From Bdellovibrionales bacterium (GTDB lineage: Bacteria; Bdellovibrionota; FAC87; UBA2466), in NCBI GenBank assembly GCA_005776395.1, contig SXPJ01000096.1, positions 1-34,720 of the forward strand: a DNA stretch of 34,720 bases, written 5' to 3'. A model generated the notes under the pieces. It saw only the letters and a list, made by a program, of their open reading frames with translations. It did no database searches and had not been told where the DNA came from. Position numbers and translations under genes: made by a program. This document shows, one piece after another, positions 1 through 17,514 of this stretch (positions within the stretch are counted from its first letter, which is position 1; each line of letters opens with the position of its first letter).

Positions 1-217
1 AGTTATTTTGATTTCTATACCCGTAACCCATCTTTTTTAAAAGCTTTGCTTTACTATTGAAGCCCTCCGTCATGGCGTTGGTTAATCCTGAGTCGAAATA
101 ATTGAGGATTTCGTTTTTCCAGCGGCTAAAGGTGTACTGTAGGGTTTTTAGTTCTGGAATATGAACACACTCTTTAAGTTGAGTCATCAATAGAGGAGCC
201 TTGCGTCTAGTTATTGA
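1..217 (-). mobile_element. ISL3-family transposase, C-terminal fragment (5'-truncated, runs off the window start)
   Basis: Reading the minus strand from about 217 to 1 gives an open frame without a stop. It holds the C-terminal signature of ISL3-type DDE transposases: a segment like LQYTFSRWKNEILNYFDSG, then LTNAMTEGFNSKAKLLKK and MGYGYRN. In the family this TNxxTEGFNxKxKLLKKxxYGYRN block follows the last catalytic residues. A stop codon (218-220) lies just upstream in the same frame, so the N-terminal zinc finger and most of the DDE domain are absent here. The gene is therefore a remnant or has been frameshifted; its 3' end lies outside the window. The first in-frame ATG is at 187. Family assignment comes from motif recognition only. 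Confidence 0.7.
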
Positions 218-320
218 TTATACGTGGTTTTATGCCTGTTTGCCCACTTATTCGCAGCGTATTGATTCTAAAAGTCTTACAGAAATTATTGAGGAATTCC
301 GAAACGAGAAGATATGAGCT

Positions 321-1342: not shown

Positions 1343-1525
1343 ATGCTCACGAAATTACGGGGAAAGATCAGTGAGCGTGTTCTCCGATTGTTTCGGAGTG
1401 TGTGTTCCACAATTGAGTCGATTTATTTAAGAGGGAAAAGGGATCGAGAGCGGGGCGGGATGTATCGAGATAGTAGTCCTTTTGAGTACAAAAAACTCAA
1501 AATTCGATTTGAACCCCCTGGGTAG
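1343..1525 (+). CDS. Small basic hypothetical protein, possibly coupled to the prepilin gene
   Basis: A 60-residue ORF starts just after the stop of the prepilin-like gene (ATG 1343; an in-frame TTG at 1337 overlaps the stop). An AGGAAG about ten bases upstream of the ATG could serve as ribosome binding site, suggesting translational coupling. The product is rich in Arg and Lys, has no clear membrane segment and is not recognised. Its last ten codons overlap the 3' end of the convergent GHMP kinase gene, and that end is part of a repeated sequence, so the natural C-terminus is doubtful. It may be a real small gene or chance. Confidence 0.35.
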   Translation: MLTKLRGKISERVLRLFRSVCSTIESIYLRGKRDRERGGMYRDSSPFEYKKLKIRFEPPG

Positions 1526-2549
1526 AGACATTCGCAGGTAATACTTGAATACCTTGAGATTGACAGGCTTCAGCAATCTGTTTTTTGGCTTGAGGATCCA
1601 CTAGCACCAACAAACTTCCCCCTTGTGCAGCCCCACAAACCTTCACCCCGTTGATCTTTTGTGAAATTAAAAATTTAATAATGTGATCAAGTCGCTCAGT
1701 ATTTACTCCTAAAGTCTCTTTTCTAGTTCTCCACTCTTCGCTTAAAAGTTCACCCACTCTTTTCCAATCGACTTGAGGCTTTAAAAATTCCTCGTGAAGT
1801 GTCTCTGTAATATCGTGAATCGCTTTGAGACCCGAACAAACTTTTTGATCCCCCTCCATCGCCTTTTTGAACACTTCCCAATTGCTAAGTCCACTGTGGT
1901 GCATCTCTCCAGAAAATAGCACAAGCATTCTAGAGTTAAGCTCATCAACAACCTTAGCCGAGTAACTATGCCGGCTTATTTTTCCAGCTTCAAAATAGAA
2001 GCAACTTAAACTTCCCCACAGTGCTCCAAGATAGTCTTGAGTTCCGGTCGGTGTTTTTAAGTATTCAGCTTCAACATCTCTTGCCCACTCCATCATCTTC
2101 CACTGCCAGCCTTCACCCTGAAACTGATCGGTCAAATAACCGAGCCCCTTGATAAGAGCTACACATAAAGTCGAAGATCCCCCCAAACCACTTCCTATAG
2201 GGGCTTGAGTTTCAATTTTAATTTTTAAATGGAAATTTTCCTTAATGATATTTTGAGAAAAAAATCGACTTACGACCGCAACGGGAAACTTTACCTCTTT
2301 AGGAACTGTTTCGAGAAGAAGGCCCAATTGAGGATCCGTAAAGACAAATCTTACTCCCTTGGAATTTTCAATCTCGATGTGTTGAGTTGAGCTGGGTTTA
2401 CAATCGAAGAGGCAAAAAGTTTTTACATTAATCGCAACATTAATAGTTCGGCTTGAACCCAAAAGACAATAGAGAGGCCAAAGATCTAAAGTGCCACCGG
2501 CTAAATCGACTCGAGTAGGCGCTGAAACTAAAAACTTTTCATGTTTCAT
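1497..2549 (-). CDS. GHMP-family sugar kinase (galactokinase/heptose-kinase-like)
   Basis: The 350-residue length and motif order fit the GHMP kinase superfamily (galactose, homoserine, mevalonate, phosphomevalonate kinases). Motif 1 is APTRVDLAGGTLDLW at residues 10-24. The phosphate-binding loop APIGSGLGGSS spans 116-126. Asp172 in TPTGTQDYLGAL is the likely catalytic-base region. Motif 3 (VCGAAQGGSLLVL) is at 304-316. The LAGGTLDLWP start resembles the D-glycero-D-manno-heptose 7-phosphate kinase and fucokinase-like branch, so a sugar or heptose substrate is likelier than mevalonate; this is inference. The gene follows the ftsB-like gene by 15 bases and probably shares its promoter. Partial copies of its 3' half lie at 7367-7638 and 14827-15030. 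Confidence 0.85.
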   Translation of the reverse strand: MKHEKFLVSAPTRVDLAGGTLDLWPLYCLLGSSRTINVAINVKTFCLFDCKPSSTQHIEIENSKGVRFVFTDPQLGLLLETVPKEVKFPVAVVSRFFSQNIIKENFHLKIKIETQAPIGSGLGGSSTLCVALIKGLGYLTDQFQGEGWQWKMMEWARDVEAEYLKTPTGTQDYLGALWGSLSCFYFEAGKISRHSYSAKVVDELNSRMLVLFSGEMHHSGLSNWEVFKKAMEGDQKVCSGLKAIHDITETLHEEFLKPQVDWKRVGELLSEEWRTRKETLGVNTERLDHIIKFLISQKINGVKVCGAAQGGSLLVLVDPQAKKQIAEACQSQGIQVLPANVSTQGVQIEF

Positions 2550-2564
2550 GTGAACGCCAATGGT

Positions 2565-2846
2565 TTAAGGAATCTCAATGACCTTTTCATTGGGCTTAAT
2601 ATACCCTAAAACTTGGCGAACGACTCGTTCTTGTTCTTCCGAGCTTTTTTGAAATTGTTCGATCTGTTTTTCTAGGGCTATTTTTTGTTCGTGAATTAAG
2701 ACAATCTTCTGTCCTAATTTCTCATTTTGCTGAACCATTCGAAGCCAATCTAATAATCCACGCTTCGAAAAGGTGCCCATAAAACAAAGCAAAGCAATAG
2801 AAAGCAAAAGAGGCAAACGCACAAAGAGGCGATACTGTTGTGGCAT
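2565..2846 (-). CDS. ftsB: FtsB/DivIC-type septum formation initiator
   Basis: This 93-residue protein has the FtsB/DivIC architecture. A short cytoplasmic N-terminus is followed by one membrane segment (about residues 11-25), then a coiled coil (about 36-75) rich in Gln, Glu and Lys, and a short C-terminal tail with Y-I-K-P-N-E-K. FtsB forms a complex with FtsL and FtsQ at the division septum and helps activate septal peptidoglycan synthesis. It lies downstream of pyk and 15 bases upstream of the GHMP kinase gene. It has its own strong promoter (2926-2954) and a leader of about 75 bases. The promoter, leader and first 46 codons are duplicated in inverted orientation at 7106-7366. Confidence 0.75.
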   Translation of the reverse strand: MPQQYRLFVRLPLLLSIALLCFMGTFSKRGLLDWLRMVQQNEKLGQKIVLIHEQKIALEKQIEQFQKSSEEQERVVRQVLGYIKPNEKVIEIP

Positions 2847-2925
2847 GGGTGTAAACTTTAATTTTTAGTGATTAAAAAAAGGAAACCGAAACAGATTCAG
2901 ATAGGACAACTCTGACCTATATTTA

Positions 2926-2954
2926 ATTATAACTGGATTTAAATAGGGGCTCAA
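2926..2954 (-). promoter_or_regulatory. Sigma70-type promoter of the ftsB-GHMP kinase unit
   Basis: On the minus strand TTGAGC (2949-2954) is separated by exactly 17 bases from a consensus TATAAT (2926-2931). The ftsB start codon lies about 80 bases downstream. The same promoter is preserved base for base in the inverted copy at 7122-7150. Confidence 0.7.
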
Positions 2955-2969
2955 TGGTCGACTAAAAAA

Positions 2970-3014
2970 GACAGCGATTCTCGGTGAGCCACAGCGCAGA
3001 ATAAAAAGTGGAGT
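2970..3014 (+). repeat. 45-bp direct repeat, copy A, at the 3' edge of pyk
   Basis: Bases 2970-3014 match 4521-4565 in the same orientation at 38 of 45 positions without gaps. The shared core is TTCTCGGTGAGCCACAG. Copy A ends on the pyk stop codon and copy B lies just beyond the pyk 5' end, so the gene is bracketed by the pair. The ftsB-GHMP duplication at 7106 begins precisely where copy A ends on its ftsB side. Confidence 0.7.
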
Positions 3015-4480
3015 TATATCTGATGAACCTTGATTGTATTTGTGGAGCCAGGCACCGCATTTGGAAGCCCTGCAGTAATTACAATTTTATCACCTGTGTT
3101 ACAAAGTCCCATCGCTAGTAATCTTTGACCAATGGCTTCAAACATTGAAGTTTGACTCATTAAGCTATTCATATCCTCCATATAGAGCCCCTCAACTCCC
3201 CACTTGAGAGAGAGTTGTCGGTAGGTCTCCTTATTTCCAGTGATTGCTAACAGACGATTATTGGGGCGACATTTCGAAGTTAACAGCGCCGATTGACCCG
3301 ATTGAGTCATTACCACAATAAGTTTAGCTTTAACGATAGAGGCAAGTCTTACTGCGCTTTGTAAAAGTGCAACTGCTAGCTGTCCCTGGGGTGGAAGTAA
3401 CCATTCGTTATAAAGAATAGGTTGAGGAAAAGGTTCACTTTCTACCTCTTCAATAATCCGTTTCATCATATGAACCGACTCAACTGGATATTTACCCACG
3501 GCAGTTTCGTTAGAAAGCATGAGGGCATCTGTCTCATCAACAATTCCATTCGCGACGTCGGAAGCCTCGGCACGAGTCGGTCGTGGATTATCCACCATCG
3601 ACATAAGCATTTGAGTCGCGATAATGACCGATTTTCCTCTCAAATTACATCTGCGCACAATTTTCTTCTGCAAAACAGGAACTCTTTCGTTCCCTATTTC
3701 AACTGCCAAATCCCCACGAGCCACTAAAATACCGTCTGAGGCATCGATAATCTCATCTAGGTTAGCCAAAGCTTCTCTTTTTTCAATTTTAGAAATTACA
3801 AGAATTTTTTTTCCGCGTTCATCAATGAATTTTTTTAAATGGCGAACCTCTTGAGCTGTTCTCACGAATGAAAGAGCAATAAAATCAACTCCGCGATCCA
3901 CGCAGAAAAGAATATCTTCATAGTCTTTTTCAGTAATAGCTCTTGCAGAAAAAGAGGCCTCTGGAGCATTGATCCCTTTATTCTGTTTTAAAATTCCTCC
4001 ATCAACGACCCAACAAAGCAGCCCTTTGGGCGTACGTTCCAAAGCCTTTAGAGTCATGAGCCCATCATCAAGTAAAATCGTATGGCCAGGAGCCACATCT
4101 CTCGTAAACTCTTTATAACTTGTAGGGATCATCGCTATCCCAGTGATTGGATCAATCGAGCCTGTAATATTTTCGGCAGTGATAATGACTTGAGCCCCCT
4201 CTTTAAGCTCAACTTCACCATTCTGTAACTTTCCAATTCTTAATTTAGGCCCTTGAATATCGGCCATGATTCCAATGGGACGTCCCAATTTAGTTTCAAG
4301 ATCTCTAATATCACTGATGATTCTAGAAAATTCATTGTGGTTTCCATGAGAGAAATTAAGACGAACAATATCCATCCCTTCACGTATGAGTTTTTCCAAC
4401 CATTCTTTAGTACTGACAGTAGGACCGACGGTCCCCACAATTTTTGTTCTTCGAGGTAAGCCTGACATAGAACAAATCAT
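3014..4480 (-). CDS. pyk: Pyruvate kinase
   Basis: Pyruvate kinase converts phosphoenolpyruvate and ADP to pyruvate and ATP, the last glycolytic step. The protein shows the family landmarks in order: RRTKIVGTVGPTVS near the N-terminus, GMDIVRLNFSHG, ADIQGPKLRIG, the catalytic-lysine segment VISKIEKREAL, ILVARGDLAVEIG, and NPRPTRAEASDVANGIVDET before the C-terminal allosteric domain. Length is about 488 residues from the ATG at 4480, normal for the family. The frame stays open to a GTG at 4543, but that would add 21 residues encoded by repeat B, with no ribosome site. An ATG at 4468 is also possible. fliL lies upstream, beyond a palindromic element; ftsB follows. Confidence 0.93.
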   Translation of the reverse strand: MICSMSGLPRRTKIVGTVGPTVSTKEWLEKLIREGMDIVRLNFSHGNHNEFSRIISDIRDLETKLGRPIGIMADIQGPKLRIGKLQNGEVELKEGAQVIITAENITGSIDPITGIAMIPTSYKEFTRDVAPGHTILLDDGLMTLKALERTPKGLLCWVVDGGILKQNKGINAPEASFSARAITEKDYEDILFCVDRGVDFIALSFVRTAQEVRHLKKFIDERGKKILVISKIEKREALANLDEIIDASDGILVARGDLAVEIGNERVPVLQKKIVRRCNLRGKSVIIATQMLMSMVDNPRPTRAEASDVANGIVDETDALMLSNETAVGKYPVESVHMMKRIIEEVESEPFPQPILYNEWLLPPQGQLAVALLQSAVRLASIVKAKLIVVMTQSGQSALLTSKCRPNNRLLAITGNKETYRQLSLKWGVEGLYMEDMNSLMSQTSMFEAIGQRLLAMGLCNTGDKIVITAGLPNAVPGSTNTIKVHQI

Positions 4481-4520: not shown

Positions 4521-4755
4521 GACAGCAGTTCTCGGTGAGCCACAGTGCATATTAGAAAGCGGAGTCATTCAAGAATTTGGATATAAAAGTGGGGCTATCA
4601 GCTCCAAGGAAAGTCGCTGTACGCCCTACTTTCATATCTAAATTCTTGAATGAGTCCATCATAAAATTACCCCAATGGCACACCGAGACTTTGCAAAAAT
4701 ATTTTTCTAGCGCTCCTCAATTAGCCTCAAAATTTATTCACCGAGAACTGCTGTA
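4521..4755. repeat. MITE-like palindromic element between pyk and fliL
   Basis: A roughly 235-bp noncoding block is bounded by perfect 16-bp inverted repeats, CAGCAGTTCTCGGTGA at 4523-4538 and its complement at 4738-4753. Its left 45 bp equal copy B of the direct repeat flanking pyk. Inside, 30-bp arms at 4565-4594 and 4624-4653 are complementary at 27 of 30 positions with a 29-base loop; in a plus-strand transcript two of the three mismatches become G-U pairs. A further inverted piece of the terminal motif (12 of 13) is at 4676-4688. The right end abuts the fliL stop codon. No transposase is encoded and no convincing target duplication was seen. A 61-codon plus-strand ORF across it is probably an artefact of the palindrome. 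Confidence 0.6.
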
Positions 4756-5349
4756 TTATTGAAGATAGAGAGAACTAATATGGGCGTTTTTAATTATGGC
4801 TTGTCCAAAAAATTCATTTAAAGTTCCAACGATGGTTTCCTTAAAATAGAGTTTACCGCCTAATGTGTTGAGTTTAGCGTAATCAAAACCTCTAGAGATT
4901 TCGATGATTCTATCTCTGATTCCAGAATGACGAGATTTAACTAGATCTCTTTTCTCTTCATCGAAGAGTTCTAATTCGAGTTTTAACCCCATCACGTGAG
5001 CCCCTTTATCCGAGTTTACATTTACATAAAGTTCATCAACGCTAAAAAGTAGAACTCCTTTTGAAACCACACTCGCAGGGGCTCGACCTTCATCTGATCC
5101 TCCGTGGCCGTCTTCGGCTTTTGGAGCCCCCCCATGACTGCTCTCCCCAGCTTTAGCCACTTCACCATGCCCTTCCGATCTCTTAGTCGAAGACTCTGAA
5201 CTCTTTTCAGTATGTCCCGAACTGTAAACCTCAGGAAGTCCGCGCAAATCATCCACCGACCTCTTAATTTTCCATAAATAGATACTTCCTATACCAATAC
5301 TGGAAAGCGAGAAAACCAAGACACCCACTTTTAAAATTCTGTTTTTCAT
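4756..5349 (-). CDS. fliL: FliL-domain protein (flagellar basal body-associated)
   Basis: From the ATG at 5349 the product is 197 residues. One membrane segment (about 8-26) is followed by a low-complexity periplasmic linker rich in Ser, Gly, His, Glu and Lys (about 45-95), and a C-terminal domain. That domain contains LYVNVNSDKGAHVMGLKLEL, RHSGIRDRIIEISRGFDY, and a segment ending in LNEFFGQAIIKNAHISSLYL, matching FliL. FliL sits in the inner membrane around the stator and supports torque or stator stability. The frame extends upstream to 5457, but that adds 36 residues without flagellar similarity before the natural membrane anchor. No other flagellar genes are present. A TATAAT lies six bases upstream of the chosen ATG. 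Confidence 0.7.
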   Translation of the reverse strand: MKNRILKVGVLVFSLSSIGIGSIYLWKIKRSVDDLRGLPEVYSSGHTEKSSESSTKRSEGHGEVAKAGESSHGGAPKAEDGHGGSDEGRAPASVVSKGVLLFSVDELYVNVNSDKGAHVMGLKLELELFDEEKRDLVKSRHSGIRDRIIEISRGFDYAKLNTLGGKLYFKETIVGTLNEFFGQAIIKNAHISSLYLQ

Positions 5350-6941: not shown

Positions 6942-6961
6942 GTCAAACCTATTCCATTTTT
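6936..6961 (+). terminator. Rho-independent terminator overlapping the OmpA-family stop codon
   Basis: A perfect 7-bp stem GAATAGG/CCTATTC (6936-6942 with 6948-6954), loop TCAAA, is followed by ATTTTT. The TAG stop (6939-6941) lies inside the left arm. Confidence 0.6.
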
Positions 6962-7121
6962 AGAAAATTATAGTGGGGCATTTGCGAACTGAGAGGAAAA
7001 AACAAGAAAATTTTTTACCAGATCTCGGCTTCTGATCCCCGTTTACCCTGATCCCGGCCTCCTGCCCCTCGACTCATTATCCCAATTCATGCGGTGGCCC
7101 TGAATCTTTTTTAGTCGACCA

Positions 7122-7150
7122 TTGAGCCCCTATTTAAATCCAGTTATAAT
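7122..7150 (+). promoter_or_regulatory. Duplicated ftsB promoter copy
   Basis: TTGAGC (7122-7127), a 17-base spacer and TATAAT (7145-7150) are identical to the parental ftsB promoter. The copy would drive transcription rightward through the pseudogenes and antisense into the 3' end of phoR. Confidence 0.6.
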
Positions 7151-7229
7151 TAAATATAGGTCAGAGTTGTCCTATCTGAATCTGTTTCAGTTTCCATTTT
7201 TAAATCACTAAAAATTAAAGTTTACACCC

Positions 7230-7385
7230 ATGCCACAACAGTATCGTCTCTTTGTGCGTTTGCCTCTTTTGCTTTCTATTGCTTTGCTTTGTTTTATGGG
7301 CACCTTTTCGAAGCGTGGATTATTAGATTGGCTTCGAATGGTTCAGCAAAATGAGAAATTAGGACAATTGGAAAAGAGTAGGTGA
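7230..7385 (+). pseudogene. Truncated ftsB copy (first 46 codons plus a 5-residue foreign tail)
   Basis: The ATG at 7230 begins a 51-codon frame whose first 46 residues equal the FtsB-like protein. It then breaks at the deletion junction (about 7366) and ends LEKSR followed by TGA. The membrane segment and the start of the coiled coil survive, but most of the coiled coil and the C-terminal tail are lost, so FtsB function is not expected. Because the promoter and leader are intact, a short membrane peptide could still be made. Confidence 0.75.
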
Positions 7386-7638
7386 ACTTTTAAGCGAAGA
7401 GTGGAGAACTAGAAAAGAGACTTCAGGAGTAAATACTGAGCGACTTGATCACATTATTAAATTTTTAACTTCACAAAAGATCAACGGTGTGAAGGTTTAT
7501 GGGGCTGCACAAGGGGGAAGTTTGTTGGTGCTAGTGGATCCTCAAGCCAAAAAACAGATTGCTGAAGCCTGTCAATCTCAAGGTATTCAAGTATTACCTG
7601 CGAATGTCTCTACTCAGGGTGTTCAAATCGAGTTTTGA
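7367..7638 (+). pseudogene. GHMP kinase 3' fragment (last ~90 codons)
   Basis: The frame from 7367 to TGA 7638 encodes the last ~90 residues of the GHMP kinase, including motif 3 and the C-terminal ATNVSTQGV-type end, with about three amino-acid changes. One replaces the Cys before Gly-Ala-Ala with Tyr. There is no start codon for this frame, and the upstream ftsB fragment is in another frame, so this is a remnant. Its 3' hairpin lies just beyond the phoR stop codon and might act as terminator for the Pho operon. Confidence 0.8.
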
Positions 7639-7661
7639 GTTTTTTTATTCAAAAGTACTTC

Positions 7662-9440
7662 CTATCCCGGAAAGCGACAGACAAACGTAGACCCCTTATT
7701 TACTTCACTTTCCACCCAAATTACGCCCTCATGTCTCTGCATGATGTGCTTTACAATGGCAAGGCCTAGCCCGGTTCCCCCTTGTTCCCGAGAACGAGCT
7801 TTGTCGACTCGATAGAATCTTTCAAATAATCTACTTTGGTGATCCACTGATATGCCAGGGCCAGAATCCTGCACCTTTAAGAACACATCCCGTCCTCCCT
7901 TTCGATCCCCTTCCCATTTTAAACAAATTGATTCTCCTTCCGGAGTGTACTTATTAGCATTATCCAAAAGATTTATTAAAATCTGCTCGAGTCGATTTGA
8001 ATCCGCCGCCACAATTGGAGCTTCAAAAAAGAGGTCCACCTTCTGCTTTTTATTTTCAAATCGCGAAGCCAACTGCTTTAGCACTCGTTCGGTAATTTCT
8101 TGAGTGCTTAATGACTCCTTTTGGATCACGACAGTGGACTCAATCGCTGAAAGGTCTAACAAGTCCTGCATTAGATTCATTAAGCGATTTGAATTTCTTT
8201 GTATAATTGCCAAAAAATCCTTTGAGGACTCATCTAACTTTCCCAGATTTAAATCTTCAATCATCGTTTCCGTATAGCCCTTAATGGCTGTGAGTGGAGT
8301 CCTTAATTCATGGGATACATTAGCCACAAAATCGATTCTCATTTGCTCGGCAGCTTTTAATTCCGTTACATCATGAAAGATTCCAAGTGCCCCATAGATT
8401 GAATTTCCAAGCCTTATTAAAGGCGAGACAGACAATGAAAAATACCGCTTGGGCTGATGGGGTGCCTCAAGTAAAAAAACTTTAGTATCACTCGCCCTTC
8501 CTTCTTTTAGGGCCGTTTTATATGCCTTTAATACTTCTGGATCTCGTAAAATCTCCCAAAGCTTAATATTTCTTCGAACGCCCCCGGAGCCAAATATGAC
8601 CTCGAATCGACTATTATAGAAAATCGGAACCTCTTCTTGATCGACGGCTAAGATAGCATCCGAAATAGAACCCATAATCGTGTCTAACTCACCTTGCTCC
8701 ATAGAAAGGCTCTGGACTGTTTTCTCAAGATTTTTCCCTAAATCGTCAATACTTGATTCTAATTCAGACCACTCTCCAAACGACTCTTCCTCAAGGTCTT
8801 CTTTAGTCAGAACTTTGGATTGATGATGAATTAAACCCTGAGTCTTTACGATCAATCTCCCAAGTGGGAAGACAAGTTTCTTTGCCAACCAAAGAGCAAC
8901 AACTAACAGGCTACTCATCAACACAGCTAAAAAGAGACCTAACGAAGTGTTAAAAACCCGAATGACAATTGATAAGCTGCTCAGTGAAATTCCGCCACGA
9001 ATAACAAGATGATAGGCTGGTACGGCTAATGTTTCATATACCATTTCTCCATCAATCGATGAAAAAAACTTTTCTTCCTTATTTTTTAAATTTTTAAGTG
9101 AGTTAATAATTTCCGGTCTTGAAAAGTATTCATTCATGAGATTGGGCTTTTCCCATGAATCACAGATTACTTTTCCATCTTCATTCGAAATGGTAAGCCG
9201 TGTACTACTGCCCGACTCAAACCCGATACAAAGAGCTGGACCTGATCGAAGGTCCAAGTCTCTGGAAAGCACCTGCACCATATCCTGGAGCTGACTTTGA
9301 ACCTGTTGAATAAAATATTTTTTAAAATAATAACGGGCTGCAAGCCCTGATGCAACAATGGCACAAATGACTAATGCTGCATGAATAAATGCAACTTGGT
9401 AAAAGGTTCGCCATGGGAAATGTTTTGACCTGGAATTCAC
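7662..9440 (-). CDS. phoR: PhoR-type phosphate sensor histidine kinase
   Basis: The 592-residue protein has membrane segments at about 13-38 and 163-187, enclosing a periplasmic sensor of about 125 residues. A HAMP-like linker and a PAS domain (about 250-360) follow. The HisKA phosphoacceptor is His377 in VSHELRTPLTAIKGY. The ATPase domain shows the N box LLDNANKYTP (491-500), DSGPGIS, ERFYRVD and GGTGLGLAIV. In the Pho system PhoR reads phosphate supply through PhoU and the Pst transporter and controls PhoB. E. coli PhoR has only a minimal periplasmic part; the large sensor here resembles Gram-positive PhoR, so an additional ligand is possible. It starts three bases after phoB and is last in the operon. 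Confidence 0.9.
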   Translation of the reverse strand: MNSRSKHFPWRTFYQVAFIHAALVICAIVASGLAARYYFKKYFIQQVQSQLQDMVQVLSRDLDLRSGPALCIGFESGSSTRLTISNEDGKVICDSWEKPNLMNEYFSRPEIINSLKNLKNKEEKFFSSIDGEMVYETLAVPAYHLVIRGGISLSSLSIVIRVFNTSLGLFLAVLMSSLLVVALWLAKKLVFPLGRLIVKTQGLIHHQSKVLTKEDLEEESFGEWSELESSIDDLGKNLEKTVQSLSMEQGELDTIMGSISDAILAVDQEEVPIFYNSRFEVIFGSGGVRRNIKLWEILRDPEVLKAYKTALKEGRASDTKVFLLEAPHQPKRYFSLSVSPLIRLGNSIYGALGIFHDVTELKAAEQMRIDFVANVSHELRTPLTAIKGYTETMIEDLNLGKLDESSKDFLAIIQRNSNRLMNLMQDLLDLSAIESTVVIQKESLSTQEITERVLKQLASRFENKKQKVDLFFEAPIVAADSNRLEQILINLLDNANKYTPEGESICLKWEGDRKGGRDVFLKVQDSGPGISVDHQSRLFERFYRVDKARSREQGGTGLGLAIVKHIMQRHEGVIWVESEVNKGSTFVCRFPG

Positions 9441-9443
9441 GAA

Positions 9444-10139
9444 TTAAAGGGCATCATTCATACGATAGCCCACTCCTCGAATTGTCTCTACTAAAGTTGA
9501 GCAATTTCCCAACTTCTTTCTCAACCCAAAGACATGGGTATCGATAGCACGATCGATAACAGCTACCCCTTCTCCCTGTACCAATTCTATCAGACGATCT
9601 CTAGTTAAAACTCTTCCTCTGTTTTTTATAAGAGCCCACAAAAGTTTAAACTCCGAAGGTGTCAAATTCAGATCTTGATTGTCACACTTCACAAAATGCT
9701 TTTCGATATCCATCAGCAATTCGCCCACTTGAATTTTAGACTCATTCGCTTCCTCATTATTGCGATTTGCTCGCCTCAGTAAGGCACGAACACGGGCCAG
9801 AAAGACTGGGATATCAAAGGGTTTAGTTATATAATCATCAGCTCCCATTTCTAGTCCCAATACAATATCCGTTGTTTGAGCTCTGGCGGTAACAATTAGG
9901 ATGGGGATCTTGCCCTTTGCAAAAGTCTTAGCCCTTACTTTTTTACAGACATCAAGTCCAGAAATTCCAGGTAACATCCAATCTAAAACCAGGAGCTGAT
10001 AGTTGTTTTTTTCAACTAACCTGACGGCGTCTTCTCCATTTTCCACCAATTCAATCTCAACCCCTTCTCGCTTAAGGTGAAGTGCCATTAATTCAGCAAT
10101 ATCCTTCTCATCTTCAACGATAAGAACCTTGCTTTTCAT
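9444..10139 (-). CDS. phoB: PhoB-type response regulator
   Basis: A 231-residue OmpR/PhoB-family regulator. The receiver domain (1-120) has the acidic pair Glu9-Asp10, phosphoacceptor Asp53 in VLDWMLPGISG, Thr84 and Lys106 in DDYITKPFD. The winged-helix DNA-binding domain (about 135-228) has LTPSEFKLLWALIKNRGRVL and ends with the typical VETIRGVGYRM. Phosphorylated PhoB binds Pho boxes made of two direct repeats spaced by 11 bp; a matching candidate precedes pstS at 14562-14583. Its start overlaps the phoU stop by four bases (ATGA), indicating translational coupling, and phoR follows directly, so the pair is produced with the transporter it controls. Confidence 0.93.
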   Translation of the reverse strand: MKSKVLIVEDEKDIAELMALHLKREGVEIELVENGEDAVRLVEKNNYQLLVLDWMLPGISGLDVCKKVRAKTFAKGKIPILIVTARAQTTDIVLGLEMGADDYITKPFDIPVFLARVRALLRRANRNNEEANESKIQVGELLMDIEKHFVKCDNQDLNLTPSEFKLLWALIKNRGRVLTRDRLIELVQGEGVAVIDRAIDTHVFGLRKKLGNCSTLVETIRGVGYRMNDAL

Positions 10140-10822
10140 TTTTTATTCTCCTGAAAACGTTGTCCAAGGGACTTATGTCTAATATCTTTTCCAGAAATTG
10201 AAAAAATTACATCTTCAGCAATATTAGTAGAGTGGTCTCCAATTCTTTCTAAATTCCGAGCAATTAGGATTACATTGAGGCCTTGTTCAATATCTTCTGA
10301 GTGTCCCTTCATCCATGCTAACGCATCCTTAAACACTTTGTCTTTTAGTCTATCTACTTTATCATCTGCCTCAAGCACCCCCCTCGCTAAATTCACATCA
10401 GACTTTACAAACGCATCAATCGCATTTTTAACCATTTGGCGAACATGGTCCGACATTAAAGAAAGATCCGAGGTATCAAAAAAAGGAGGGTGTTTTAAAT
10501 AATATTCTGAGTTTCTCGTAATGTTTACTGTTTGGTCTACCATTCTTTCGATATCTGTATTGGTTTTTATCACCGAAAGTATAAAGCGCAGGTCGAAGGC
10601 AAGGGGCTGTTGAGTTGCTAATAATTTTAAACAAGTGGCATCCACTTCTAAATGGGCGCGATTTACCTTATCCTCGATCTGATAGACGCTAGAAGCAATC
10701 GAAGCATCTTGATTTTTCCAAGCTTGAGTACAATAAACCACCGCCAGCTCTAAATACCCAGCCATCGTGATCAACTGTTCTTTTAGATCATTTAAGCCAA
10801 TATCTAACGTTCTTTGCATCAA
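10136..10822 (-). CDS. phoU: Phosphate transport regulator PhoU
   Basis: The 228-residue length fits PhoU, a protein of two similar three-helix bundles. Segments diagnostic of the family are visible in both halves: [20 protein letters not shown] with the following NITRNSEYY, and [20 protein letters not shown] near the C-terminus. The paired Asp/Glu clusters bind metal. PhoU links Pst transporter state to the PhoR kinase and represses the regulon when phosphate is plentiful. The gene overlaps pstB and phoB by four bases each. No truncation or missing motif is seen. Confidence 0.93.
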
Positions 10823-11574
10823 CCGAATTTCCCTGTAATGTACTCTTCTGTTTTCTTTTCTTTAGGGACTGTAAAAATTTGGGAAGTGTCACCAAATTCA
10901 ATTAATTCACCCAATAAAAAAAAGGCCGTCTTATCCGAAACCCTAGCCGCTTGTTGCATATTATGGGTAACTATAATGATTGTAATCTCCTTTTTTAATG
11001 AAAGGACAAGCTCTTCAATTTTGGCAGTTGAGATAGGATCCAAAGCGCTCGTGGGTTCATCCATGAGTAATACGGGAGGTTCTACGGCCAATGCTCTGGC
11101 AATACAAAGTCTCTGTTGCTGCCCTCCTGAAAGACTCGTTCCAGGTTGGTTTAGCTTGTCTTTTACCTCATCCCAAAGCGCTGCCAGTTTCAGACTCTTC
11201 TCTGCTACGTCACGCAGAATACTTTTTCTACCAATACCTGCCAAGCGAAGGCCCGCCACAACATTATCAAAAACTGAAAGCGCAGGAAATGGGTTTGGCT
11301 TTTGAAAAACCATTCCCACTTTTCTTCGAATTCTTACCGGATCTACTCCTGCCACATAGATATTTTCTCCCTGAAGAATCACTTGTCCAGATGCGCTTGC
11401 CCCAGGAGTTTCTTCATGCAATCGATTGAGGCAGCGAATAAAAGTCGATTTTCCACATCCCGAAGGACCAATCAAGGCTGTCACTTTATTGGAATCAAAA
11501 CTCAACTTAATATTATTTAGCGCTCGGTGTTCTCCGAACCAGGCATTTAAGTTATTCACTTTCAAAATTGACAT
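10819..11574 (-). CDS. pstB: Phosphate ABC transporter ATP-binding protein PstB
   Basis: The 251-residue ABC ATPase has Walker [10 protein letters not shown], the Q-loop in [12 protein letters not shown] (the KPNPFP form is specific to PstB), signature [17 protein letters not shown], Walker [13 protein letters not shown] and the switch histidine in [13 protein letters not shown]. Two copies would power the PstC-PstA channel on the cytoplasmic side. The gene lies four bases after pstA and overlaps phoU by four bases. Confidence 0.96.
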
Positions 11575-11578
11575 AATA

Positions 11579-12457
11579 TTAATTCAACCCCTTAACAGTA
11601 GGTTTGAAAATCACACGAGTTATTAAATTAATTAAAAATACAAAAACAATCAACGCATAGGCCCCTGCCCAAGCTTGACGATTCCAATCATCAAATGGAG
11701 AGATCGCATAGGTATAAATCTGAACTGGTAAGGAAGAAATGGGTTGGTCCAATCTAAATTGCAGAAATTGATTGTTCAAAGCTGTAAACAAAAGGGGGGC
11801 CGTCTCACCAGAAACTCTTGCGACTGCCAGCATGACTCCGGTAATAATAGCACTAAAAGAACCCCTTAGAACAATCCTCAGCGTTACTTTCCACCGTGGC
11901 AATCCAAGAGCCAACCCAGCCTCTCGAATATGGTTGGGAACCAGCTTTAATAATTCTTCAGTAATTCTAGCAATCGTGGGAATCATAATGATAGCCAGGG
12001 TTAATGAACCTGACAGTGCAGAAAATCGGTGCATAGGTTTTACTAAAATAACGTAAACAAAAAGTCCTAATATAATGGAAGGAACGGACGACAGCATATT
12101 TGCAGAAAATCGGACAGTGCTTGCAAATTTTCCTCTTCCATATTCAGAAAGATAGACACCAGTAAGTATTCCCCATGGGACTCCAATTAAACCTCCCAAT
12201 GAAACCATGATCAAAGAACCCACAATGGCGTTCAACATGCCACCGCCTACCTCTCCTACGGGTTTTGGCAAAGAGGTAAAAAATGGCCAATTAAAAGCGG
12301 GAAGTCCTTTGTATAGTACATAACCAAAGACCGCTCCAAGCGCCAAGACAACAATTAAAGTAGATACCACCATCAAGCTACAAAATAAAATATTCGTAGC
12401 CTTTCGTCGTTTATAATGAAGTCGGGTAAAATCTCCAAGCGGGTTCAAACTCATCAA
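11579..12457 (-). CDS. pstA: Phosphate ABC transporter permease PstA
   Basis: The 292-residue protein has about six hydrophobic segments. It also has the binding-protein-dependent transport loop [20 protein letters not shown], the EAA motif that docks on Pst[12 protein letters not shown]-like and [11 protein letters not shown] segments are typical of PstA. With PstC it forms the inner-membrane phosphate channel. It overlaps pstC by four bases (12454-12457), so the two permease subunits are translationally coupled. Length is normal. Confidence 0.95.
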
Positions 12458-13479
12458 AAGGTTCCAGTATGTTTTTTTGTTATCTTTGAAATAATTAAAT
12501 GCGCTATTGAATTAACTAAAAAGGTCACCATAAATAATAAGAGCCCAACAAAAGCCAATGTCGATAAATGAATCTCACTGGTTGCTTCTGTGTATTCATT
12601 TGCAATCACACTTGCCATAGTTTGCGCGGGCGCAAAGAGTGACGCTACAATTTCTGCTCTGTTGCCAATAACCATCGTTACAGCCATCGTTTCCCCTAAC
12701 GCTCGACCTAGACCCAAAATTATCGCTCCAAATACACCTGCTTTTGCGCTCTTAAGAACTGATAACCTCATCATCTCCCATCGGGTGGCCCCCAATGCTA
12801 AAGCCGCTTCCCGCTGAGAGTGCGGTATAGCGCGAAAGACTTCTCGAGAAATGGAAGAAATAGTAGGGGTGATCATCAAAGCCAAGATGAGTCCCGAGGT
12901 AAACATGCCCACACCATATGCCGGGCCTGTAAAAATAGGAAGAAATCCAAGGTTCTCAATAAGAAAGGGTTGAATACTACCCCTAAGAAGAGGAACGAGT
13001 ACAAAGATTCCCCAAAGCCCGTACACTACACTTGGAATAGCTGCCAACAGCTCTACCAAAAAGCCAACAATAGTTGCCAGTTTTTTAGGCGCTAATTCAT
13101 TAGTAAAGAGTGCAATTCCCAAGCTTAACGGTACCGCAAAAATTACCCCCAATAAGGAGGAAACCAATGTTCCATAAAGAACCGGTAGCACCCCATACAC
13201 ATCTCGTACTGGATCCCACAGGCTTCGAAAAATAATTTGCCAACCTGAAGCAGCAATAGCCTTCTCTGATGCCAAATAAAGAAATAATCCAATGGAGGCT
13301 AGAAGGATAACAGTTAAAAAAGAAGTAAACAAAAGCCCTAGAAAAAAGATTTTATCAGCAAGATGCACATCGCGCTTTAATGTAAAGTTGCGAATGAGTT
13401 TAGTTGCTTTTTTTGTCGAATTTATCAGTGTTCCAGAACTCAAGGATCTAACGTCTCCTATCGGAACGCTTGGACTCAT
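12454..13479 (-). CDS. pstC: Phosphate ABC transporter permease PstC
   Basis: The 341-residue permease has a basic cytoplasmic N-terminus of about 40 residues, then around six membrane segments. Family markers are LAAIPSVVYGLWGIFVLVP, the EAA loop REAALALGATRWEMMRLSVL and GRALGETMAVTMVIGN. PstC pairs with PstA. The gene starts ten bases after pstS ends and overlaps pstA by four bases. The N-terminal extension is slightly long but within family range. Confidence 0.95.
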   Translation of the reverse strand: MSPSVPIGDVRSLSSGTLINSTKKATKLIRNFTLKRDVHLADKIFFLGLLFTSFLTVILLASIGLFLYLASEKAIAASGWQIIFRSLWDPVRDVYGVLPVLYGTLVSSLLGVIFAVPLSLGIALFTNELAPKKLATIVGFLVELLAAIPSVVYGLWGIFVLVPLLRGSIQPFLIENLGFLPIFTGPAYGVGMFTSGLILALMITPTISSISREVFRAIPHSQREAALALGATRWEMMRLSVLKSAKAGVFGAIILGLGRALGETMAVTMVIGNRAEIVASLFAPAQTMASVIANEYTEATSEIHLSTLAFVGLLLFMVTFLVNSIAHLIISKITKKHTGTF

Positions 13480-13489
13480 TTAACTCCTA

Positions 13490-14509
13490 TTAGCCTTTTT
13501 GTTTGCCAAACGTAAGAGTTTTAATCTTAGCTTCAATTTTAGCTACAAGCGACTTTGGAAGTGGAGAATACTTTAACTCACTAGCGAGCTTCTGCCCATC
13601 CTTAATTGCCCAATTTAAAAACTTAACGAGCTGACCGCCCTTTTCGGCGTCTGGAGTATCCCTCCATACCAAGAGATAGGTGAAACTTGATAAGGGATAA
13701 GCCCCTGGGCCTTCGGCATTAGTAATAGAAATCCTAAAGTCTTCCGGCATGGCCTTAATGGATGCAGTTGCGGCGGATGTAACAGAAGCTAAAGAAGGGG
13801 TAACAAACTTTCCGGTTTTGTTTTTTAGGTTTGCGTAACTTAGGTTATTGAATTCTGCATAAACAAACTCCACATAACCAATACTGCCGGGCGTTTGTTT
13901 AACAAGTCCGGCAACACCCTCATTTCCTTTGCCGCCAAGTCCTACAGGCCAATTCACTGCTGTTCCCTGACCCACCTTCTCTTTCCATGCTGGACTTACT
14001 TTTGAGAGATAATCGGTAAATACAGCAGAGGTCCCACTTCCATCTGACCGATGAACGACAATAATATCGCCTGTCAATTTCAATTCTGGGTTTAATTTAG
14101 TGAGACGAGGATCTTCCCATTTTTTAATCTCCCCCAAAAATATTGCCGAAAGAGCCTCAGGGGTTAACTTTAAACCAGATTGAACTCCAGAAATATTGTA
14201 AACTGCGACCACCGCTCCCAGAACGGTAGGAATGTGCACGACAGGAGCCCCTGCTTTTTGCATTTGTTCATCTGTCATTGGAGCATCTGAGGCACCAAAA
14301 TCCACTGTCTTATCAGAAAACTGACGAATTCCGCCGCCACTTCCTATGGATTGGTAGTTAATTTGAACCTCAGAATTTATCTTTTGGTATTCAGAAAACC
14401 ATTTTGAATAAAGTGGAAATGGAAAAGTTGCACCCGCTCCATTAATCAGCGTAGCTGCAAATGAAATCTGGGTACAGAGACTTAAAAGAATCAAACTAAA
14501 CAGCTTCAT
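13490..14509 (-). CDS. pstS: Periplasmic phosphate-binding protein PstS
   Basis: The 339-residue protein has a Sec signal peptide (about 1-18, ending QISFA) followed by TLINGAGATFPFPLYSKW, the standard PstS N-terminus. Phosphate-binding segments are GSGGGIRQFSDKTVDFGASD and HRSDGSGTSAVFTDYL. It captures phosphate in the periplasm and delivers it to PstCA. The ATG at 14509 has an AAGGAG about six bases upstream, the clearest ribosome site in the window. It is first in the pst-pho operon, behind a candidate Pho box and a -10 element. The signal peptide ends in Ala, with no lipobox cysteine. Confidence 0.96.
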   Translation of the reverse strand: MKLFSLILLSLCTQISFAATLINGAGATFPFPLYSKWFSEYQKINSEVQINYQSIGSGGGIRQFSDKTVDFGASDAPMTDEQMQKAGAPVVHIPTVLGAVVAVYNISGVQSGLKLTPEALSAIFLGEIKKWEDPRLTKLNPELKLTGDIIVVHRSDGSGTSAVFTDYLSKVSPAWKEKVGQGTAVNWPVGLGGKGNEGVAGLVKQTPGSIGYVEFVYAEFNNLSYANLKNKTGKFVTPSLASVTSAATASIKAMPEDFRISITNAEGPGAYPLSSFTYLLVWRDTPDAEKGGQLVKFLNWAIKDGQKLASELKYSPLPKSLVAKIEAKIKTLTFGKQKG

Positions 14510-14540
14510 GTCAACTCCTTGGCAAAATAAATGGCCCCTA

Positions 14541-14583
14541 TTTATAAGTGTTTTTTGGCCTCTTTTTGTTAGAATTTGGTTAG
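14541..14583 (-). promoter_or_regulatory. Candidate Pho box and -10 element of the pst-pho operon
   Basis: On the minus strand CTAACCA (14577-14583) and CTAACAA (14566-14572) begin exactly 11 bases apart with an AATT spacer and an A-rich tail. This is the geometry of PhoB/PhoP direct repeats, which replace a -35 element. A TATAAA (14541-14546) follows about 15 bases downstream, and the pstS ATG is 32 bases further. The repeat sequence resembles the TTAACA repeats known for Bacillus PhoP as much as E. coli CTGTCAT. Assignment rests on spacing and position. Confidence 0.5.
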
Positions 14584-14826
14584 GATATAATCCTCACCCC
14601 TCATCAAACCTTGTTAATACCTTGCTACTGGGGGGAATTCCGAACTGATGGTGTGCTTCAATTATCTTTGAATAGATATCTGCAGAGGCTCTTTTTTTTC
14701 GATGCAATGTAGAATGAATGTGAAAGTCTCCCCTGTACATTTACTTTAAAGTTAATTGCCTAAGGTTACGCTAAGATTTTTATTCTGTTAGTGTTTCGTT
14801 AAGAGGATATCGGCACAAATGGCAGC

Positions 14827-15030
14827 CATTCGTAGGTAACACTTGAATACCTTGAGATTGACAAGCTTCAGCAATCTGTTTTTTGACTTGAGGATCCAAA
14901 AGTTCTTCATGAAGCCTTTCTGCAATGTCGTGAATCACTTTGAGCACCGAACGAACTTTTTGATTCCCCACGCTACGTAAGAAGCCTCTACCCAGGGTGT
15001 TCAAATCGAATTTTGAGTTTTTTCATTCAA
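14827..15030. pseudogene. Scrambled GHMP kinase remnant (internal deletion plus local inversion)
   Basis: Bases 14827-14970 read on the minus strand as a diverged GHMP kinase fragment: residues about 235-259 (QKVRSVLKVIHDIAERLHEE) joined to residues about 320-340 (KKQIAEACQSQGIQVLP). About 180 bp are lost between two CTTGAGG repeats of the parent. Bases 14986-15030 match the last ~45 bases of the gene in the opposite, plus orientation. The two pieces meet at neighbouring points of the parental sequence (1529 and about 1527). Hence turning 14827-14985 around in place would restore one plus-strand remnant. Nothing functional is expected; the 74-codon minus-strand ORF over it is not a gene. Confidence 0.7.
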
Positions 15031-15088
15031 GAGAAATGGGAAGTAATCCCAACTCGACTTTTGTAAGATCGAGGCCTATTTTTAGAAG

Positions 15089-15651: not shown

Positions 15652-17514
15652 GTGGAAAAATCGGGCTTAAAAAAAACATACAAGCTCTCCAAGGAAAACA
15701 AACCTTTAGAAGACTCAATCGCCTCTAAGCTGCCAAATTGGATACCTAATCTATTGCTGATTTGCCTTATCCTGATGTTGGGATACCTTCATTTTCCCAC
15801 AGGGTTCAATCTCCAACGCAAACTTATAGATTATGATGACCTAGAAGTGGTCGCAAAAATGATGAATCTTGATTTGAGCAGCTATTTCAATGAATGGCTA
15901 CCCAATCGTATACACTACGCTTTTCCTGTAAGAGATATCACCATTTTTTTTGATAAGTGGCTCTCCCCTCAAACTGAAGGGCAATTTTGGATCAGTAATT
16001 TTGTGCTCTTCTCGCTCTGTATTTTTCTGTTTTCTCTCATTCTCAAGATGATCTTTTCTAACTATGGGCCTCTTAACTTAGCTCTTCTCACGCTTTATGC
16101 GCTTCATCCCATCCAAACTGAAGTAGTTCAATGGATCACTTGTCGGAAATATCTTGTGGGTCTTCCCCCCATTCTTCTAGGAACTTGGATGGTTATCCGA
16201 TGGAAGGGGCAGGAACTAACCCCACGGCGTATTGCGGGGCTCACTGTAGTGTGGCTACTATCACTAGCCTCTTATCCGACCGCTGCTTTTTGGATACTTT
16301 GGGCCCTCTTTTTTATTCAGCGAAAAAACCCTCTTAAAAATAGATTACCCTTGTATGTTCTCTTTTTTGCAATCACTGCTCTGTATCTTTTTTTAGTAGG
16401 CCATGGAACTCTCGAAGTAAACTCAAGCTTAACCAACATTATTTCTAACTACAAAAAGAGTTTTCATTTTGGCTATAACGCTTTGGGGAGAGGGTTTTTT
16501 AACCTTGTTTTACCCTTTTGGACATTTTCTTATTACCGTGAAAATCATCCCTTCACTTTCATCGGATTAACTCTCTTAGTAGTTTTTCTTCTTTTTATTA
16601 AAACGGTAAGTCACCGAGTCTTGTCATTGAGTTACGAATCAAATTGTCGCCAACATCTCATTGAGGCAGGAGTATGGTTATTGGGGGGAGTGAGTTTTTT
16701 GATTCCAATCTCTAATACCATTTTGGGATTTTTTGATTTTATGCTTGCCGACCGGCACCTCTTTTTTTCAATGCCGTTTTTTATTATTGCGACAGGTTAT
16801 TTTTTTCTCTTTTTAAAAGAACTATTCGAATTTAATAAACCTGAATGGAAAATTGGAGTGCCGGTCATTTTTACAATCTGGATTGGTATCAGCCTATTCT
16901 CGATTGCAAGTAAAGTTCCGCTTTGGAAAGACGACTTCGAACTCATGAAAAATTGTGCAATCAAAGAGGGTTCTGCCCGATGTATGTCACAAACCGTTCG
17001 TCGTCGTTTTTTCAAGAGCGACTGTGCGAGTATAAACGACACGCTCTTGCAAGCGGCTGATTTTTACAAGCAAAAGCCTCCCTTTTCCTTTGAGTTCAGT
17101 TCAGAGATCCCTTTCTATCACGCTGCTTGTATCTCATTAAACAGTAGTATTCCTCGTGAAAAGAAAGAGGCCATTATAGAATCTCTCGAAAGATTCTATG
17201 ATTCATCTCCAGAAATCATTTTTGGGTTGGTTCTCTCGAGCCTTGAAAATGGCAATATGAGTAGAGCCATGGATTTAGCTTCTCAATATTATTTAGGCGA
17301 CCTCTCACTGGGACCAATTTCAGCCACTAGAACTCTACAGGCTGTTTATGCCGGTCAACTCACTGTTCTTTGTCAGCTTAATCCTTCTCCTCTCTGCTCC
17401 TCCCGACTGAATCATTTTTTATTACTTCATCCAGAAGCCATTATTAACTCCGGAGCCGGTTCATGGGGGCGGGAGGCTACCCTTATTATGGCCAAGCGTG
17501 GCGGGCTTAAATAG
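15652..17514 (+). CDS. TMTC-like integral membrane glycosyltransferase (GT-C fold)
   Basis: The 620-residue product starts at GTG 15652; the overlapping ATG at 15650 is in another frame and stops at once. About ten hydrophobic segments follow a cytoplasmic N-terminus. The first loop carries an acidic motif (YDDLEVVAKM). Later, ALHPIQTEVVQWITCRKYLV matches the LHPxHTExVxWISxR signature of TMTC-type O-mannosyltransferases, which transfer mannose from a polyprenyl-phosphate donor. The C-terminal ~170 residues are soluble and helical with several cysteines, replacing the usual TPR array. Donor and acceptor are unknown. Two GT-C enzymes occur in this window (see 26502). Confidence 0.6.
   Translation: MEKSGLKKTYKLSKENKPLEDSIASKLPNWIPNLLLICLILMLGYLHFPTGFNLQRKLIDYDDLEVVAKMMNLDLSSYFNEWLPNRIHYAFPVRDITIFFDKWLSPQTEGQFWISNFVLFSLCIFLFSLILKMIFSNYGPLNLALLTLYALHPIQTEVVQWITCRKYLVGLPPILLGTWMVIRWKGQELTPRRIAGLTVVWLLSLASYPTAAFWILWALFFIQRKNPLKNRLPLYVLFFAITALYLFLVGHGTLEVNSSLTNIISNYKKSFHFGYNALGRGFFNLVLPFWTFSYYRENHPFTFIGLTLLVVFLLFIKTVSHRVLSLSYESNCRQHLIEAGVWLLGGVSFLIPISNTILGFFDFMLADRHLFFSMPFFIIATGYFFLFLKELFEFNKPEWKIGVPVIFTIWIGISLFSIASKVPLWKDDFELMKNCAIKEGSARCMSQTVRRRFFKSDCASINDTLLQAADFYKQKPPFSFEFSSEIPFYHAACISLNSSIPREKKEAIIESLERFYDSSPEIIFGLVLSSLENGNMSRAMDLASQYYLGDLSLGPISATRTLQAVYAGQLTVLCQLNPSPLCSSRLNHFLLLHPEAIINSGAGSWGREATLIMAKRGGLK

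Follow-up and report, generated by a model that had tools for sequence, protein, structure and literature searches.

DNA duplication associated with inversion (DDAI) is known in Helicobacter pylori and others, according to two papers (PMC4671568, PMC8963470) citing Furuta et al. (2011, PNAS 108:1501); as outlined there, an end segment of a block is found also at the other end of the block in inverted orientation, and one set of genes survives while the other decays. Staggered-break inversions of Drosophila (e.g., PMC4965816, PMC5080602) similarly leave inverted duplications at both breakpoints, one copy of which usually turns into a pseudogene. Ordinary partial gene duplications and pseudogenes of bacteria also consist of truncated, frame-broken gene parts lying close to the parent. 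The ftsB–GHMP kinase locus analyzed here, in a window that comprises the whole 34,720-nucleotide stretch of one contig from a Bdellovibrionales bacterium, resembles all three in these respects. It differs from DDAI in that the inversion step has no reference, the un-inverted order having been found in no genome, in that the two arms of the duplication have been cut further by deletions, and in the presence of an unrelated pst-pho operon, a third kinase piece, and a MITE end at one edge. The Drosophila inversions are eukaryotic events with sequenced ancestral arrangements, whereas the history of the present locus is deduced from one genome. Unlike an ordinary partial duplication, the copy carries a full promoter and leader, and both arms appear to share a former neighbor.

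Results

The initial annotation described a recent inverted duplication of the ftsB–kinase locus with an internal deletion, and alignment of 1497-2971 with the complement of the copy gave the high identities it had claimed, about 98% and 97%. Positions 7105-7366 are an inverted match of 2971-2710 (258 of 262 bases identical, 98.5%), and 7367-7645 are an inverted match of 1768-1490 (271 of 279, 97%), with BLAST E-values of 1e-130 or lower that exclude a chance origin. The copy holds 46 codons of ftsB and the last ~90 codons of the kinase, as had been stated; the intervening 941 bp of the parent (1769-2709) are missing through an internal loss, and the resulting junction, GGACA/ATTGG, is nearly blunt, its two sides sharing no more than 1 nt. 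Coding and noncoding parts are about equally conserved, again in agreement with the earlier reading (spacer, 122/125; ftsB codons, 136/137; kinase codons, 264/272). Identity between the arms changes abruptly at both ends: at the kinase stop codon it falls from 97% to ~75%, and past the edge 2971/7105, where it had been 98%, no similarity remains. Across the complete assembly (2.76 Mb, 106 contigs), a search returned, beyond the copy, only the parent and a third, decayed piece (14824-14898 and 14986-15033), all on the same contig. For the junction stretches 6942-7104, 14510-14823, and 15034-15088, the fetched relatives yielded no related sequence, and the rest of this genome yielded one weak 31-nt match, on another contig.

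Table 1. Features of the duplicated ftsB–kinase locus and its surroundings
Feature	Position	Strand	Basis or remark
Decayed phoR 3'-end remnant, 3' of the intact kinase	1415..1489	+	DNA match to phoR
Intact GHMP-family sugar kinase gene, 350 aa, arm 1	1497..2549	-	Pfam GHMP_kinases_N 2e-10, _C 2e-6
Intact ftsB/DivIC-family gene, 93 aa, arm 1	2565..2846	-	Pfam DivIC 4e-10; congener synteny
ftsB promoter (TTGAGC-17-TATAAT at 2954-2926) and leader	2847..2970	-	Conserved leader GGTCAGAGTTNTCCTATCTGAATCT at 2917-2893
Truncated MITE end between pyk and ftsB	2971..3015	+	83% over 48 nt (2970-3017) to 4521-4568
Full-length MITE, ~232 bp, between pyk and fliL	4521..4756	+	TIR NCAGCAGTTCTCGGTGA; 7-bp target duplication
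Arm 2, block 1: ftsB promoter, leader, and 46 codons	7105..7366	+	BLAST to 2971-2710
Sole frame open from the copied ftsB start, 51 residues, MPQQYRLFVRLPLLLSIALLCFMGTFSKRGLLDWLRMVQQNEKLGQLEKSR	7230..7385	+	
Arm 2, block 2: last ~90 kinase codons, out of frame with ftsB	7367..7645	+	97% to 1768-1490
Intact phoR, convergent with arm 2	7662..9440	-	Pfam HisKA/HATPase_c
phoR-phoB-phoU-pstB-pstA-pstC-pstS block between kinase pieces 2 and 3	7662..14509	-	
Third piece, part a: parent 1526-1600 joined to ~1786-1854	14824..14970	-	185 bp missing; 81-93% identical
Third piece, part b: kinase end and ~18 nt of 3' flank	14986..15033	+	92% to 7608-7655, 97% to 1490-1527

The copied ftsB frame comprises its 46 codons and five more past the junction before a stop codon is reached; the kinase tail is in a different frame. 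No single open frame therefore crosses the junction, as it would in a functional fusion gene, and the word "fused" in the initial annotation holds for the DNA and not for a product; judged from the reading frames, the 51-residue FtsB stub would be at most what the copy could make. Orthologues of the kinase stand beside ftsB in five congeners and are 67-74% identical. Against these, the replacements L280S and C305Y occur in the copy only and at positions conserved in the congeners, C305 lying inside GVKVCGAAQGGSLL, which suggests relaxed constraint on the copy; I295T is a change on the intact kinase gene and not on the copy.

The ftsB promoter was said to have been carried over intact, and indeed the promoter-like site of the copy, a 10/12 match, and the leader are unchanged. 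The leader contains a 25-nt element, GGTCAGAGTTNTNCNATCTGAATCT, just downstream of the ftsB −10 box (2893-2917 on the minus strand and 7159-7183 on the plus strand). It occurs once in each of the five congener genomes, always at ftsB, and twice in this genome; two sister-genus genomes lack it. The element can form a hairpin, for which covariation is uninformative because the core pairs never vary, and to our knowledge no function has been assigned to it. A search of the window against Rfam gave no match, and the hairpin between copy 2 and phoR is weak as a terminator (z −0.68).

Two further remnants went unreported in the initial annotation, leaving its account of parent and copy incomplete. 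One is the third kinase piece, at 14824-15033, the two parts of which lie on opposite strands and are split exactly at parent position 1526/1527, so that a single small inversion would rejoin them into an uninterrupted kinase end. This piece holds sequence that is absent from copy 2 and lacks sequence that copy 2 retains, which indicates that the two decayed independently. The phoR-phoB-phoU-pstBACS block lies between copies 2 and 3, and the third piece is older than the arms, scrambled, and more decayed.

The other is a remnant of the phoR 3' end beside the intact kinase, in which 1415-1463 matches phoR 7934-7885 at 39 of 50 positions (78%) with one frame-shifting gap, and 1466-1489 matches 7669-7646; 215 bp between the halves are missing. 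Its order and orientation beyond the intact kinase are those of phoR beyond copy 2. The match scores 38.3 bits, against a best score of 27.4 among 9,814 unrelated tiles taken from this genome after removal of histidine-kinase stretches (0/9,814 as high). The remnant is visible as DNA only: the small frame 1343-1525 gave no match to PhoR above shuffles at the protein level. Since a colinear phoR 3' end lies beyond each arm, both arms probably once ran from ftsB through the kinase into phoR, and given the tile control, "parent" and "copy" are better viewed as two arms of one former unit. The duplicated unit was larger than had been claimed, extending into phoR.

The order kinase-ftsB-pyk-fliL-ompA is the same in all five congeners (split over two contigs in one of them) and in sister genera, and is ancestral in the genus. 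Genes past ompA and past the kinase differ in every congener, and these variable flanks point to breakpoints. The near-identical arms had been thought able to invert pyk-fliL-ompA; such an inversion is possible, but none is fixed relative to ftsB in the assembly, because order and strands are those of the congeners. None of the five congeners has the inverted copy, a check that the initial annotation had proposed, and a scan of named genomes found one close relative only, Bdellovibrionaceae bacterium UBA2466.

A PstC search at an E-value of 1e-20 gave no match in four of the five congeners and a distant match only in the fifth, while the sister genera carry the whole pst-pho block at other loci. 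A short, genus-type PhoR also exists in this genome on another contig, so that the phoR of the window is additional. The thioesterase gene that follows the third piece has other neighbors in relatives, adjoining nfo in most. Kinase pieces thus stand at both junctions of a pst-pho block that is itself out of place, or extra, in this species. Identities of the block to the sister genera are roughly 55-83%, a range that includes that of pyk (69%) and thus does not separate horizontal gain from ancestral retention; the block was either gained from outside the genus or retained with losses elsewhere.

As to other genes of the window, a 620-residue membrane protein with no Pfam family is encoded at 15652-17514, between the thioesterase gene and nfo. 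A fragment of an ISL3-family transposase (1-240, minus strand; Pfam DDE_Tnp_ISL3, 7e-18) lies at the contig edge, followed by a species-specific ORF (321-1340, 339 residues) with, in our reading, a pseudopilin-like start, and a subthreshold match to CTHRC1_C; none of the fetched loci contains a relative of it.

The outer end of the truncated MITE meets the edge of the duplicated block within ~5 nt, in arm 1, and the pyk-ftsB spacers of the congeners lack this MITE end. The full-length element contains an internal self-complementary stretch, and relatives of it occupy ~45 distinct places in this genome. Elsewhere in the bacterial genus and family, the sampled genomes have almost nothing of this element, with only fragments of it in three other members of the family. 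No MITE or other element end was found at the remaining copy edges (7655, 14824, and 15033).

Discussion

We consider it reasonably probable that 7105-7655 arose from a DDAI-like, breakpoint-associated inverted duplication at the junction where the pst-pho block was relocated or gained, and that it decayed thereafter. The phoR-pst block of this lineage would have come to lie next to the 3' end of the kinase, convergent with it and bordered on each side by kinase pieces. A long-staggered break, or an equivalent template switch, might have started at or within a few nucleotides of the pyk-ftsB spacer, the present site of the MITE end, and stopped within phoR, which would make phoR the 3' neighbor of both arms in the ancestral state. 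The redundant halves would then have decayed, arm 1 losing phoR and arm 2 losing 941 bp of ftsB and kinase, including most of the latter. We infer this order of events, the inversion itself, and any role of the MITE from the present arrangement. Two features expected of DDAI and of staggered-break inversions were found, namely segments in opposite orientation at both ends of a block, as the arms bracket pyk-fliL-ompA, and the same outer neighbor on both arms, the phoR 3' end, decayed on arm 1. A single age for the arms and the outer remnants was not found (97-98% versus 78%), and with the inverted state being without a reference, the locus is DDAI-like and not a proven member. Because part b of the third piece is on the strand opposite to part a, the pst-pho block may be flanked by direct or by inverted repeats.

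The unequal ages, 78% for the phoR remnant, 81-93% for the third piece, and 97-98% for the two arms, are the weakest point of a single-event model. They imply either gene conversion between the arms, which could keep the two arms young, or more than one event; absent such conversion, one event of one age does not fit, and separate events fit equally well. The description of the duplication as recent accordingly applies to the two main arms, while the third piece and the phoR remnant represent older layers. One scheme of this kind is a simple recent inverted duplication of ftsB and the kinase by fold-back or template switch, followed by the 941-bp deletion, with the phoR flank and the third piece as older, separate events. 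The abrupt loss of identity at the kinase stop codon and at 2971/7105, together with the far greater divergence of the older pieces, argues for it, but it leaves unexplained why both arms have the same gene ends and the same neighbor, phoR, in colinear order, and we regard it as rather unlikely.

Another possibility is that the MITE drove the event, a transposase cleaving at its outer end beside pyk and the broken end being copied or joined next to ompA. That the edge falls within ~5 nt of the outer TIR base of the truncated MITE, that the congeners lack this element, and that its family is abundant in this genome alone among those sampled, fragments aside, is consistent with such an origin. 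In the congeners, however, only ~4 nt separate the pyk stop from this position, and the pyk stop itself could just as well be the edge, with the MITE inserted later into the A-rich stretch; moreover, the other edges are without a MITE end and no active transposase was identified. A break at the MITE end is a plausible trigger, a later insertion of the MITE also fits, and the MITE-driven scheme as a whole seems doubtful to us. Still less likely is a broader version, in which a lineage-specific burst of the MITE caused the breaks behind DDAI-type rearrangements; one of these would have inserted the pst-pho block, lacking in the sampled congeners, between kinase pieces, leaving behind a second working ftsB promoter and leader directed toward phoR.

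The copy is very likely non-functional and probably has no selected function. Arm 2 may still give rise to a short RNA with the 51-residue FtsB stub, as its sequence predicts, and one could imagine that the RNA or the stub titrates a regulator, disturbs the divisome, or serves as antisense to phoR, the last having been suggested by the direction of the copied promoter. The unchanged promoter and leader would suit such a role, as would the invariance of the single-copy leader at ftsB across the genus, which suggests that something may bind or act there, and the stub retains the start, the hydrophobic helix, and part of the coiled coil. Nevertheless, the copy is present in one genome only, its kinase part has replacements at conserved sites, most of the coiled coil is gone, and an overlap with phoR would require read-through past 7655, all of which makes a function improbable. 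That the copy is an artefact or a strain chimera of a draft assembly of 106 contigs, in which inverted repeats can mislead assemblers and the window is one whole contig, is very improbable, because 12 substitutions and independent deletions, different in each copy, separate the copies, each lies in a different unique context, a third decayed piece exists, and the gene order between the arms is ancestral.

The stretch 7105-7655 is most probably a pseudogene scar, mostly noncoding, beside a phosphate-uptake operon, a real but fairly ordinary result of genome reshuffling. Its value lies in recording a stepwise bacterial rearrangement within one contig through reciprocal decay, in which each inverted arm preserves what the other has lost, and this record borders an operon that is missing from the sampled congeners. 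If the link to the MITE is true, it would tie the activity of the element to DDAI-type duplications; otherwise, the locus is an instance of routine genome evolution.
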